In this document: piece by piece, positions 15,631 through 33,627 of the stretch
Numbering within the stretch: position 1 is the first letter of the stretch
Layout: each line of letters opens with the position of its first letter
Assembly (NCBI GenBank): GCA_028702675.1
Contig: JAQVOJ010000010.1
Location: 9,926 to 47,178, forward strand
Direction: 5' to 3'
Length of the DNA: 37,253 nucleotides
Source: Bacteroidales bacterium
GTDB lineage: Bacteria > Bacteroidota > Bacteroidia > Bacteroidales > ML635J-15
Position numbers and translations under genes: made by a program
Notes under the pieces: model-generated
What the model saw: only the letters and a program-made list of their open reading frames with translations
Database searches by the model: none
What the model was told of the DNA's origin: nothing

Positions 15631-17292
15631 TTATTTATCCTTTAATTTATATTGAATTATTCCTATACCAAAAAATAGAATTGAGGAAATGGTAATCCCC
15701 AAAATATTTGCATCAAGGTTTAGTGGTAAATTTACATCTAAAGCAATCAAGCTTATTGTGGTTCCACCTCCTCCTATCATAGCCACTAAAGCTGCCAAAG
15801 GACTTGCCTTCTTCCAATATAATGCTCCAATTACGGGCAAAAGTAGTCCACTTACCATAAAAGCATACGAGTATAGCATAAGTGAAAGAACGTTTTGCAT
15901 ATTTGATGCTAATAACAGAGCAAATGCTCCAATAAGAATTGTAATAATTTGAGAAATTCGGAGTGTATGCTTTTTATTTTTATTCAAGAATCTCCATTTT
16001 CCTAACAAATCTGTTTGAACATTTCCTGAAGCAGCCATCAAGTATGAGTCGGCAGTGCTAAGTATGGCCGAAAAATAGGCTGCCAACATCAATCCTAATA
16101 AACCAACGGGTAAAACATGGTTAACCCGCATTATTCATCGCATTATTCTTGGTTGGCTCGTAACAAGATTTTAGTCAGTGGATTGGCACGGTGCTTATGG
16201 TTTTATTATTAGCCAAATTTTGAGAAAGCTTACAATTATCTTTGTGCATCTGCTTCGTTGCAAAACTCTTGAAATATAAGGATATATCTGCAAGTTTCGA
16301 CGCCTACCAGCTACACAAAGCTAATCGTATGAATAATGCGGGTTAAGCAATAATGGCAAACCCATTTCTTCATCTATAGAGCTACCTGCTGCATACCCAA
16401 TATCGGCAAACATATTGGCATCGAAAGCAACTTTACCTAGCAAACCAAGAATTACACCCATAAAGGCCATTACCGGATATTCAAAAAGACCTGCTATATA
16501 CCAAGCTTTTTGAGCTTCTTTGGTACTTTTACTGGCATATATTCGCTGATATAAGGTCATCCCAACAAACCAAATTGGAATAATTGTGAATCCCCAATTT
16601 ACAAGTTGTTGCCAAGTAATATTACTCAAAGAAAAAAACTCTTTGCTAAGGCTAGTAGATATTACGTCCCAACCTCCGGTTGTATAATATGCAAACGGTA
16701 TCCCAATAAAAATTAATCCGACAAGTAATATTGCCCATTGAATGGTATCGGTATAAATTACAGCTTTAAGCCCACCTGTTCCGGTATAAACAATCGCAAT
16801 TATTCCCATTATCAGAAGAGCTGTATTAATATTAAATTCAGGAAATGTTGCCGAAGCCAATTTTGCCCCCGCCAATAATTGACTACTTGTAAAACCGATG
16901 TAACCTATTGCAGAAATAATTCCTGCAACCAAAGCTACTTTACCATCATAATAATGTGTAAACAGTTGTGGAAAAGTCATAAATTTGTTATCGCGGGCAA
17001 CATTACTTACCTTTGGTATAAGCAGAACAGCACTAAGCCATGCTCCAATAAGACCTGTAAAGAGCATCCAACTCCCCGACAATCCCATTAAAAATCCTAA
17101 TCCTCCAAGTCCTATACTAAAACCTCCACCTACATCAGTAGCTACAACCGATAAACCTATATGCCATTTCCCCAATGAACGACCTCCTACATAATAATCT
17201 TCGGTGTTTTTATTCCTTTTCAAGAAATAAAACCCTACTCCCAACATCACTATCATGTAAACAATAAAAATACTAAAGTCTATCCAATGCAT
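15631..17292 (-). pseudogene. Sodium:solute symporter (SSS family), split by a 218-bp insertion
   Basis: The N-terminal part (17292 to the insertion) begins MHWIDFSIFIVYM; I chose this ATG over the track's 17346 because it gives a normal SSS first helix. It carries 'GGRSLGKWHIGLSVVATDVGGG' and 'GFTSSQLLAGAKLASATFPEFN'. It then runs into element sequence and stops after PHYSYD. The C-terminal part resumes as 'HVLPVGLLGLMLAAYFSAILSTADSYLMAASG', a core SSS sodium-site region. Removing the element plus one TTAA joins 'GLPLLLN' to 'HVLPVG' in frame, giving 479 residues, a normal SSS length. The gene is therefore recently disrupted. The track's MRVNHVL start is made by the element and gene together. 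Confidence 0.93.
16125..16342. mobile_element. 218-bp non-autonomous TTAA element (MITE-like) in the symporter gene
   Basis: The ends are a perfect 14-bp inverted repeat, CCCGCATTATTCAT (16125-16138) and ATGAATAATGCGGG (16329-16342). Both sides are flanked by TTAA (16121-16124 and 16343-16346). Deleting the element and one TTAA rebuilds an uninterrupted symporter frame, so TTAA is a true target duplication. There is no transposase ORF. Inside are a second GCATTATTC at 16140-16148 near the left end and an inverted CTTTGTG/CACAAAG pair (16240-16246, 16314-16320). It could be an internally deleted IS or a MITE moved in trans. The parent family is not identifiable by eye; TTAA choice resembles piggyBac/IS1380-like DDE enzymes. 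Confidence 0.92.
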
Positions 17293-17498
17293 AATAAATA
17301 GTTTAAGCAAACAATAAAAAAAAATATAATTAGAAATGCAAATCACAAATTATACTATACATTTAAATTCTCCTTTAATAATCTTTCTGCTTCATGACTC
17401 AAACTACAAACAAGAAATAAAACCTTACTATATTAAATCAAAATTCCAAACAATTAAACGTGAAAGTCTGTTAGGTAGAAAAAACAACAATAATTTTT

Positions 17499-27228: not shown

Positions 27229-27260
27229 TTTGCTTAATATTAAAGTTTATTTACCTTTGC
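27229..27260 (+). promoter_or_regulatory. Promoter of rplU-rpmA
   Basis: TTTG at 27229-27232, a 19-bp spacer, and TACCTTTGC at 27252-27260 match both consensus boxes of the Bacteroidota housekeeping promoter exactly. The start would be near 27267, giving a leader of about 37 nt. This is the strongest promoter seen in the window, as expected for ribosomal protein genes. Confidence 0.8.
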
Positions 27261-27303: not shown

Positions 27304-27615
27304 ATGTACGCAATAGTAGAGATAGCAGGACAGCAATTTAAAGTAGAAAAAGGCAATAAGCTTTTTGTTCATCGTTTAGATGCTGAAACAGGCAGTGATA
27401 TTGAGTTTGATAAAATATTACTGATTGACAACGACGGTAAAATAAAAGTAGGAAAACCGGTAGTAAAAAATGCAAAAGTAGTTGCAAAAGTATTAGATCA
27501 CGTAAAAGGCGATAAGGTAAAGGTTTTCAAGAAAAAAAGACGTAAAGGTTACCAAGTACTTAATGGACATCGTCAGTATTTTAGCGAAGTAGAAATTCAA
27601 GAAATAACAGCATAA
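27304..27615 (+). CDS. rplU: 50S ribosomal protein L21
   Basis: This 103-residue protein has the full L21 pattern: '[25 protein letters not shown]', '[17 protein letters not shown]' and the C-terminal signature '[23 protein letters not shown]'. It is a component of the large ribosomal subunit that binds 23S rRNA. It is followed after 11 bp by rpmA, the usual partner. Confidence 0.98.
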
Positions 27616-27626
27616 AAATTTGAGCC

Positions 27627-27890
27627 ATGGCACATAAGAAAGGAGCAGGTAGTTCAAGAAACGGTCGCGAATCGGAAAGTAAACGACTAGGTGTAAAAAT
27701 ATACGGCGGACAGAAAGCTGTTGCTGGAAACATAATAGTTCGCCAGCGCGGCACAAGACATAATCCGGGTAATAATGTTGGATTAGGGAAAGACCATACA
27801 TTGTTCGCACTTTGCGACGGTGTGGTTAAATTCCAAAAGAAAAGAGACAATAAATCTTATGTTTCTGTAGAACCAAGTTCGGCAGAATAA
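27627..27890 (+). CDS. rpmA: 50S ribosomal protein L27
   Basis: This 87-residue protein shows the L27 signature: '[62 protein letters not shown]'. The N-terminus is the plain AHKKG form that reaches the peptidyl-transferase centre, without the cleavable extension known from Firmicutes. It shares the rplU transcript, which probably ends at the terminator 28 bp downstream. Confidence 0.98.
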
Positions 27891-27917
27891 TCTTAAAAAA
27901 TTAAAACATATTAATGT

Positions 27918-27957
27918 CCTGTTTTTTCTAACTTTGCAGAGAAAACAGGATTTTTTT
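27918..27957 (+). terminator. Intrinsic terminator of rplU-rpmA, overlapping the serS promoter
   Basis: CCTGTTTTTTCT (27918-27929) pairs with AGAGAAAACAGG (27938-27949) over 12 positions including one G-T, with the 8-nt loop AACTTTGC. ATTTTTTT follows. It is the clearest intrinsic terminator in the window. Confidence 0.88.
27929..27937 (+). promoter_or_regulatory. -7 box of serS, located in the terminator loop
   Basis: TAACTTTGC matches TAnnTTTGY exactly and occupies the loop of the upstream terminator. The start point would be near 27944, in the right arm, giving a leader of about 33 nt before the serS ATG at 27977. A -33 TTTG is not evident. Confidence 0.6.
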
Positions 27958-27976
27958 ATTTTATAATGTCAAGCTT

Positions 27977-29248
27977 ATGTTAAATATTCAAGTATTAAGA
28001 GAAAATTCAGAATTTGTAATTGACCGACTAAAGGTTAAGAACTTTGATGCTAAAAAAATAGTTGCAGAAATTATTGAATTAGATAATAATCGTAAGACAA
28101 ATCAAGCAGAAAGAGATAATCTGCAAAGCACTTTAAATAATATTTCTAAACAAATTGGAATTTGTTTTAAAGAAGGCAAAACCGCGGAAGCTGAAAAATT
28201 TAAATCTGAAACTCTTTCGCTTAAAATCAAAATAAAGGAGTTGGAGTTGTTACAACAAAACTATCAAAGTAAACTAGATGATTTGTTAGTATTACTGCCA
28301 AATATTCCCAATGAAGAAGTACAACCAGGTAAATCAGAAAACGACAATATTGAAATTAGAAAAGGCGGTATAATTCCCAACTTACAAAACAAAAAACCTC
28401 ATTGGGAACTAATTTCTAAATATGATATTATTGATTTTGAACTTGGAAATAAAATTACAGGAGCAGGATTTCCTATATATAAAGGTAAGGGAGCAAAACT
28501 TCAAAGAGCCCTTATAAGTTTCTTTTTAGATCAAGCCGAAACTGCCGGCTACGAAGAAGTTCTTACTCCTTTAGTAGTTAATGAAGCAAGCGGATTTGGC
28601 ACAGGACAGCTTCCCGATAAAGAAGGTATGATGTATCATGTAGTTAATGATCATTTATATTTGATTCCAACCGCAGAAGTACCTATTACTAATATTTACC
28701 GTGATGTAATTTTAGACGAAGATGTTTTGCCTATCAAACATGTTGGTTATTCGGCATGTTTTAGGCGTGAAGCAGGAAGCTGGGGAGCTCATGTAAGAGG
28801 CTTAAATCGTTTACATCAGTTCGATAAAGTCGAGATAGTGCAAATTCAAACCCCCGATAAATCTTACGAAACTTTAAACGAAATGGTTTTACATGTTGAA
28901 AGCCTTCTTAAAAAGCTTATGCTACCATATCGCATTGTAAGATTATGTGGTGGCGATTTGAGTTTTGCTTCAGCATTAACTTACGATTTTGAAGTTTTCT
29001 CAGCAGCACAAGAAAGATGGTTAGAGGTAAGCTCAGTATCTAATTTTGAATGTTTTCAATCTAATCGCTTAAAACTAAGATATAAAAGTAAGGAGCAGAA
29101 AAAAAATATTGTTGCTCACACCCTTAATGGTAGTGCTCTTGCCTTACCACGAATAATGGCCGCAATTATTGAAAACTATCAAGATAACGAAGGAGTTAAT
29201 ATTCCCGAAGTATTAATTCCTTATACAGGATTTAATAAGATATCTTAA
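27977..29248 (+). CDS. serS: Seryl-tRNA synthetase
   Basis: This 423-residue class II synthetase charges tRNA-Ser and tRNA-Sec. The N-terminal tRNA-binding coiled-coil arm covers about 25-110 ('LDNNRKTNQAERDNLQSTLNNISKQIG'). The catalytic domain has 'YLIPTAEVPITNIYRD', motif 2 'YSACFRREAGSWGAHVRGLNRLHQFDKVE' and motif 3 'LNGSALALPRIMAAIIENYQ'. Length is normal. It is followed after 56 bp by the lipoprotein gene. Confidence 0.98.
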   Translation: MLNIQVLRENSEFVIDRLKVKNFDAKKIVAEIIELDNNRKTNQAERDNLQSTLNNISKQIGICFKEGKTAEAEKFKSETLSLKIKIKELELLQQNYQSKLDDLLVLLPNIPNEEVQPGKSENDNIEIRKGGIIPNLQNKKPHWELISKYDIIDFELGNKITGAGFPIYKGKGAKLQRALISFFLDQAETAGYEEVLTPLVVNEASGFGTGQLPDKEGMMYHVVNDHLYLIPTAEVPITNIYRDVILDEDVLPIKHVGYSACFRREAGSWGAHVRGLNRLHQFDKVEIVQIQTPDKSYETLNEMVLHVESLLKKLMLPYRIVRLCGGDLSFASALTYDFEVFSAAQERWLEVSSVSNFECFQSNRLKLRYKSKEQKKNIVAHTLNGSALALPRIMAAIIENYQDNEGVNIPEVLIPYTGFNKIS

Positions 29249-32235: not shown

Positions 32236-32268
32236 AAAAGGGCTACAAATCTAAGTAGCCCCTATTTT
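32234..32268. terminator. Bidirectional terminator between ruvC and the COG2403 gene
   Basis: GGGCTAC (32240-32246) pairs with GTAGCCC (32255-32261) over an 8-nt loop. Read on the minus strand it is followed by TTTTTT, and on the plus strand by CTATTTT. It therefore can end both convergent genes, with the minus direction better. Confidence 0.8.
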
Positions 32269-32289: not shown

Positions 32290-33627
32290 TTATTTACAGA
32301 ATTTATTTATAAATTGATCTGTAAATACTTTTAAATTAGGCGTTCCTATTTCTTGCAAATCGTAACCAATTTTAACTGTTGGTTTATCGATTTTAACAAT
32401 TCTTGTAAGATCAATAGGTGTAGCAATAACCACAGCATCACAAGGAGTGTTAGCGATTGTTTTTTCTAAGTCTTTAACTTGTTGATCGCCATAACCCATT
32501 GCAGGTAATAGTGTTCCGATTCCCGGATAAATTTTAAAAGTTTCTGCTAATTTACCAATAGCAAATTCTCTTGGATCAACTAATTCGGCAGCACCACATT
32601 TCATAGCAGCAACAGTACCGGCTCCCAATTTCATTTCGCCGTGAGTAAGAGTTGGTCCGTCTTCAACAACAAGCACTTTTTTACCTCTAATAAGTTCGGG
32701 TTTATCAATTGATAGAGGAGAAGCACCATCAACAACTGCTGCATCAGGATTAACCTTTACGATATTATCTCTAACAATCTGAATAGCCTCAGGTCCTGCT
32801 GAATCCATTTTATTAATTACAACTACATCAGCCATTCTTAATGTTGCTTCGCCTGGATAATATGCTAATTCATGGCCAGGTCTGTGTGGGTCAACTACAG
32901 TTACCATCATATCAGGTTTGTAGAATGGGAAGTCATTGTTACCACCATCCCAAATAATAACATCACAGCCATCGGGATCATTTTCGGCAGCTCTTACAAT
33001 AGCTTCGTAATCAACACCAGAATAAATAACGTTTCCACGTACAACATGTGGTTCGTACTCTTCCATTTCTTCGATAGTACATTTGTGTTTAGCAAGATCT
33101 TCGATAGTAGCAAAACGCTGCACCTTTTGAGCAACCAAATCACCATAAGGCATTGGGTGACGAATAGCAACTACTTTAAGACCAGCTTCCATTAACAATT
33201 CTATGATCCTACGTGAAGTTTGGGATTTACCACAACCTGTACGAACAGCACCAACAGCAATAAGTGGCTTGGTTGATTTAATTTGAGTTTTCTCCGGACC
33301 TAAAAGATTAAAGTTAGCTCCACATGTATTTACTAAAGCACTAAGGCTCATTACTCTATTATAAGGCACATCGCTATATGAGAATACACATTCCTCAACC
33401 TGATAATCTTTGATTAATTTTGGTAATTCCTCCTCAGCATAAATCGGAATACCTTCGGGATATAATTCGCCTGCTAACTCTGCCGGATATTTTCTTCCGT
33501 CAATATCAGGAATCTGAGCAGCTGTAAACGCAACAACATTGTACTCTTCTTTACCTCTGTAGTAAGTGTTGAAGTTGTGGAAATCTCTTCCTGCAGCTCC
33601 AATGATAATAACATTTTTTCTAGCCAT
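32290..33627 (-). CDS. COG2403-like P-loop protein (cyclic 2,3-diphosphoglycerate synthetase family)
   Basis: This 445-residue cytoplasmic protein starts with a nucleotide-binding-like 'KNVIIIGAAGRDFHNFNTYYRG'. A P-loop follows at about 125-140 ('GAVRTGCGKSQTSRRIIELL'), then 'DVIIWDGGNNDFPF', 'TVVDPHRPGHEL', 'VVVINKMDSAG' (NKxD) and 'VLVVEDGPTLTHGEMKLGAG'. The family includes archaeal cyclic 2,3-diphosphoglycerate synthetase, which makes a methanogen thermoprotectant; the bacterial members have no established role that I know. Its codon use looks less A/T-biased than its neighbours. It is monocistronic or ends the OsmC-thioesterase run 191 bp upstream. Confidence 0.82.
   Translation of the reverse strand: MARKNVIIIGAAGRDFHNFNTYYRGKEEYNVVAFTAAQIPDIDGRKYPAELAGELYPEGIPIYAEEELPKLIKDYQVEECVFSYSDVPYNRVMSLSALVNTCGANFNLLGPEKTQIKSTKPLIAVGAVRTGCGKSQTSRRIIELLMEAGLKVVAIRHPMPYGDLVAQKVQRFATIEDLAKHKCTIEEMEEYEPHVVRGNVIYSGVDYEAIVRAAENDPDGCDVIIWDGGNNDFPFYKPDMMVTVVDPHRPGHELAYYPGEATLRMADVVVINKMDSAGPEAIQIVRDNIVKVNPDAAVVDGASPLSIDKPELIRGKKVLVVEDGPTLTHGEMKLGAGTVAAMKCGAAELVDPREFAIGKLAETFKIYPGIGTLLPAMGYGDQQVKDLEKTIANTPCDAVVIATPIDLTRIVKIDKPTVKIGYDLQEIGTPNLKVFTDQFINKFCK

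Follow-up and report, generated by a model that had tools for sequence, protein, structure and literature searches.

The window analysed here, the whole 37,253-nucleotide stretch of a Bacteroidales contig, carries rplU, rpmA and serS in tandem on the forward strand. Gene names are those of NCBIfam equivalogs, and the features of the region are as follows.

27252..27260, forward strand: TACCTTTGC, likely -7 box of rplU-rpmA, found by motif search 52 nt before the rplU ATG
27304..27615, forward strand: rplU, ribosomal protein L21 (TIGR00061 equivalog above cut-off), first gene of the upstream operon
27627..27890, forward strand: rpmA, ribosomal protein L27 (TIGR00062 equivalog above cut-off), last gene before the terminator
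27916..27951, forward strand: terminator hairpin of 14 pairs with an 8-nt loop (minimum free energy, z-score and terminator scan)
27929..27937, forward strand: TAACTTTGC, candidate serS -7 box formed by the last base of the 5' arm and the loop (exact match, motif enrichment and conservation)
27940..27944, forward strand: predicted serS transcription start within the 3' arm, placed from a box at -12 to -5 (PMC9723704)
27951..27957, forward strand: terminator T-run TTTTTTT, read from the sequence
27977..29248, forward strand: serS, serine--tRNA ligase (TIGR00414 equivalog above cut-off)

The gap between rpmA and serS is occupied by one hairpin, whose stem begins 25 nt after the rpmA stop codon. 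Its 5' arm (27916-27929, GTCCTGTTTTTTCT) and 3' arm (27938-27951, AGAGAAAACAGGAT) enclose the loop AACTTTGC (27930-27937) and form 12 Watson-Crick and two G-U pairs. The minimum free energy of the hairpin alone is -16.9 kcal/mol; folded with its flanks (27910-27965) it has a z-score of -5.8, and none of 200 shuffled sequences folds equally well. The coordinates and description of this terminator in the first-pass annotation hold, except that the stem has 14 pairs and not the 12 claimed there. The observation that the loop and the last stem base together make a perfect box in front of serS is confirmed by the exact match of TAACTTTGC at 27929-27937, within which TAACTTTG (27929-27936) fits TAnnTTTG exactly. 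The first T of the box is paired with A27938; 48 nt separate the start of the box, and 39 nt its end, from the serS ATG downstream. When the letters of the hairpin are shuffled, a TAnnTTTG is centred in it by chance in about 0.8% of cases.

Elsewhere in the window, a sodium:solute symporter-like gene (15631-17346, reverse strand) looks broken, being split into an ORF of 341 aa and one of 166 aa that are separated by stops and apparent shifts of frame. A 48-bp tandem repeat at 45-365 (6.7 copies, 93% match) is open in several frames on both strands.

The -7 box of Bacteroidota sigma-ABfr promoters is TAnnTTTG, and the sigma-A box is given at -12 to -5 (PMC9723704). In 1.71 Mb of the genome of the window (G000; 3.09 Mb in 188 contigs), from which all motif statistics were taken, TAnnTTTG is enriched 4.0-fold in the interval 15-49 nt ahead of ATGs; at 44-52 nt, the range of the serS box, the enrichment is 2.6-fold. 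Among variants at position 7, TAnnTTCG is enriched 2.3-fold and TAnnTTAG 1.8-fold, with TAnnTTGG at 0.4-fold, and replacement of the first T by C (CAnnTTTG, 0.6-fold) abolishes the enrichment; a smaller sample of this genome agrees. In pooled loci of other Bacteroidota the corresponding values at 15-59 nt are 3.9 for T, 2.3 for C, and 1.1 for both A and G at position 7. Over the whole window TANNTTTGC shows no enrichment (13 found, 14.4 expected), so that only the position of the box is informative. The sequence preceding the serS box is T-rich; within the 40 nt ahead of the box neither TTG nor TTTG occurs to serve as a -33 element. Since the -33 element was undetectable genome-wide in G000, it was not treated as defining promoters in this genome; in F. 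johnsoniae it likewise could not be identified (PMC7366714). Judged by its position alone, the serS box is more probably a promoter than not, though this is not certain.

TAnnTTTG occupies the loop in four of 137 strong terminators in the same 1.71 Mb, compared with a mean of 0.93 for the set of permuted-letter motifs, in which no other permutation exceeded two; 0.7-0.9 such cases are expected by chance among 86-137 terminators. This excess is suggestive only, and the serS case is itself among the four. The boxes lie 48 nt (serS), 31 nt (sufS) and 85 nt before a same-strand ATG, and the fourth is convergent. A genome-wide habit of placing boxes in loops was rejected, as there are just these four cases, one of them convergent and one 85 nt from its ATG. 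The sufS case is a strong terminator-like hairpin immediately ahead of the gene (L159, contig C27 of G000, 1437-1469) with TACCTTTG in its loop. It was set aside as a second conserved example, since those relatives that have a TTTG before sufS lack such a hairpin in the stretches compared, and from these comparisons the arrangement looks confined to G000. In the window itself, a hairpin at 32238-32263 on the reverse strand, between the convergent ruvC and 32290-33627, carries the TAnnTTTG box TAGATTTG in its minus-strand loop; no same-strand gene start is nearby, and this box could be either a chance occurrence or an antisense start into ruvC. A loose box-in-hairpin pattern run over 393 genomes returned many scattered matches of unclear context and was not used.

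The rpmA-serS gene order and a terminator with TCCTG/CAGGA are widespread in Bacteroidales. At the 54 junctions with a scored hairpin, TAnnTTYG is found in the loop in six, only downstream of the terminator in 21, elsewhere in one, and nowhere in 26. A downstream box is thus present at 21 of the 48 serS junctions whose loop lacks the box, and at none of the six whose loop contains it. One junction (L047) has the loop GTGA and the box placed downstream, a swap of position. No loop box was found at rpmA terminators that do not precede serS, about half of which come from one genus, and nothing was found in a search for rpmA in viral contigs. Counted over 66 serS junctions, the six loop boxes compare with 0.78 for permuted motifs; because the sequences are related, we do not take this count as proof. 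Where a box is visible, the common layout is a terminator followed by a putative promoter, and the two are fused in some lineages. Most Bacteroidales outside these lineages have an rpmA-serS loop without the box. At the junction L140 of genome G054, the box TAACTTTGG immediately precedes the terminator stem at a distance of 71 nt from the serS ATG; a start from it would fall in the 5' arm, giving another promoter-terminator overlap.

The window's own family contains both fused and unfused junctions, G000 being the sole genome of its genus in the comparison; among named organisms, its serS has its nearest relatives in Bacteroidales. The loop of G001 (genus g2) contains TATTTTTG in the same place as the box of the window, and that of G004 (genus g5) has TAATTTAG there, which departs from the consensus at position 7. 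The arms of these two hairpins differ, and their intergenic flanks have no obvious similarity. The large sister genus g4 is unfused at the junctions where rpmA is followed by serS: TAnnTTCGC lies downstream of the terminator, 27-36 nt before the ATG (junctions L105, L118, L120, L125 and L127), and the loop, without a box, is constant within the genus as TTCCCC.

The richest material comes from family f30 (71 genomes), whose genus g215 includes junctions identical to those of Carboxylicivirga. The search patterns fixed the stem base, the T-run and the serS start, leaving the box free; the resulting set of 38 junctions consists of the pattern matches together with G059 and Geofilum (L012), and off-pattern genomes, for example those of genus g192, were left out. 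At 37 of the 38 junctions, representing 13 genera, TAnnTT(C/A/T)G is in the loop: TACTTTCG in 34, TACATTAG in two and TACTTTTG in one, the box being lost in the last (TACTTAAA). Mean pairwise identity is 0.95 in the box, 0.80 in the inner 5' arm, 0.59 in the 7 nt after the box and 0.39 in the spacer, and no second such box was found in the f30 stretches compared. Inner stem pairs show compensatory or wobble changes (pair 10-23 is A-T in 13, G-C in eight and G-T in three of 25), and hence the hairpin is also selected. The first-pass annotation had asked about the loop in relatives and named a stem kept over a changing loop as a refutation; the opposite was found, as the f30 box stays while inner stem and spacer change. 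In two families, the comparison thus shows a candidate box that is conserved in the loop above a covarying stem. The 38 sequences from f30 are nevertheless related and represent few independent events.

The loop itself varies in size, from 4 nt in most f30 junctions to 8-10 nt in the window and G004, with TAnnTTnG unchanged. The 'nn' positions are nearly invariant in f30 (C in 38 of 38, followed by T in 36 and A in two), which hints at some constraint beyond the needs of a bare -7 box. Moreover, the covarying pairs that flank the f30 box give a C(TTTC)G tetraloop. At position 7 the f30 boxes carry C, T or A, the variants that G000 shows enriched ahead of its ATGs, and never G. In family f93 (G308, G122 and G223), the rpmA-serS loops have a conserved GCAACTTT(G/A), in which C replaces the first T of the box. 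These f93 loops (CAACTTTG or its variant with A) were not counted as promoter boxes, since CAnnTTTG, at 0.6-fold, is not promoter-like.

An intrinsic terminator requires no particular sequence in its loop. Because terminator loops are normally unconstrained in this way, a second function of the rpmA-serS loop is likely, and a serS promoter is the best fit. The loop is the best-conserved part of the element, matches the -7 box or its C variant, stands at promoter distance and lacks the box where serS does not follow; it is most simply explained as the serS promoter. Our favoured interpretation, which we consider likely, is that an intrinsic terminator and a promoter are fused in the rpmA-serS element, whose loop box starts the transcription of serS. 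The rplU-rpmA RNA, having both arms, would fold the hairpin and be released in the T-run. In the same DNA, sigma-ABfr RNA polymerase would read TAACTTTG as a -7 box and begin serS transcription approximately 4-8 nt downstream of it, within the 3' arm, leaving a serS 5' UTR of about 33-37 nt without the 5' arm. A serS mRNA that starts inside the 3' arm would miss the 5' arm, and the terminator could not form in it. We infer from these features both the start position and the use of the box for serS initiation in the cell. A change of TACTTTCG to TGCTTTCG would be an example of a loop mutation compatible with an intact hairpin.

The first-pass suggestion of a single sequence that closes one transcript and opens the next gains support from the box in the f30 loops and by TATTTTTG at the same place in G001. 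It is weakened by the imperfect TAATTTAG of G004, the unfused g4, the boxless loops of most Bacteroidales and the lack of a -33 element; the one f30 genome without the box, the near-miss loops of f93, the nearly fixed 'nn' bases and the relatedness of the f30 sequences also count against fusion, as does the fact that other families rarely have the arrangement. It is speculative, by analogy with known recycling, that polymerase released at this site may be handed to the overlapping promoter. That the overlap itself has been selected, with the polymerase ending the ribosomal-protein transcript being captured by the box it has just passed and serS output thereby tied to rplU-rpmA, seems to us rather doubtful.

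The strongest competing explanation, still an unlikely one, is chance combined with common descent: the loop of the window has the box accidentally, its constancy in f30 reflects slow drift among related sequences, and serS is transcribed by partial read-through from rplU-rpmA or from an unrecognised promoter. AT-rich loops do occasionally give TAnnTTTG, at the 0.7-0.9 cases per 86-137 terminators noted above, but the full consensus is retained in G001, and the f30 loop is constant over 13 genera despite 39% spacer identity and changed stem pairs. Constancy as such can arise without a box, as TTCCCC in g4 demonstrates within one genus, whereas boxless loops differ among genomes of the single genera g101 (family f97) and g29 (family f25). 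The absence of a recognisable box from 26 of 54 serS junctions, and an enrichment just 2.6 times background at 44-52 nt, remain in favour of accident.

We regard as improbable a second alternative, that the loop is a recognition site of another kind in RNA or DNA, for instance a loop through which the rpmA 3' end binds a protein or is stabilised, and resembles a promoter box incidentally. The nearly fixed 'nn' bases and the C(TTTC)G tetraloop of f30 would suit such a site, but G266, G449 and the window's family have kept TAnnTTnG without the tetraloop. The f93 loop GCAACTTT is similar and is kept without the consensus; on the other hand, the loop is not retained at rpmA terminators without a downstream serS, and the position-7 changes follow the forms enriched before ATGs, G being unseen. 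Finally, an attenuator or riboswitch-like leader of serS in place of an rpmA terminator is highly improbable despite the classic attenuation setting of a downstream aminoacyl-tRNA synthetase gene, given that no riboswitch, T-box or other serS-controlling RNA in the window matches Rfam at the gathering threshold, that the stem follows the rpmA stop by 25 nt, too little for a leader or competing structure, and that the rpmA terminator is retained even where serS is not next.

If the fused terminator-promoter interpretation is true, the core of the following promoter resides in loop nucleotides that the terminator leaves free, and the message downstream escapes termination by starting inside the hairpin. 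The element would then be a compact natural terminator-promoter part for Bacteroidota and a clean natural site for asking whether a terminator passes polymerase on to a promoter that overlaps it, which has so far been studied mostly in vitro with the E. coli enzyme. Its conservation in cultured Carboxylicivirga makes it experimentally accessible.

A literature search covering few subscription journals found no described -7 box in the loop of a preceding terminator, and the rpmA-serS element would be a new form of overlapping transcription signals. With sigma-ABfr promoters it shares the exact box, an ATG distance at which the motif is enriched and the T-rich sequence before the box; it differs in having the box within the terminator loop of the preceding operon and no TTTG at -33. 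Similarly, the stable hairpin, with G/C pairs close to the foot of its stem, its place right behind the rpmA stop codon and the T-run after it are those of an intrinsic terminator, but the loop sequence is constrained here and an ordinary terminator needs none. The E. coli ampC attenuator doubles as the terminator of the upstream frd operon and is likewise a single hairpin shared by two adjacent tandem transcription units; there the promoter lies upstream and the whole hairpin is in the downstream message, whereas the serS start would be inside the hairpin. RNA polymerase recycling and reinitiation after termination involve separate elements, up to ~1000 bp apart in E. coli (PMC6978322, PMC6978380, PMC11347151), and handover between separate elements has been shown in vitro (PMC6978322, PMC6978380). 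In both situations a terminator is close to the next promoter, which polymerase retained on the DNA could use; in the rpmA-serS element, terminator and putative promoter coincide.
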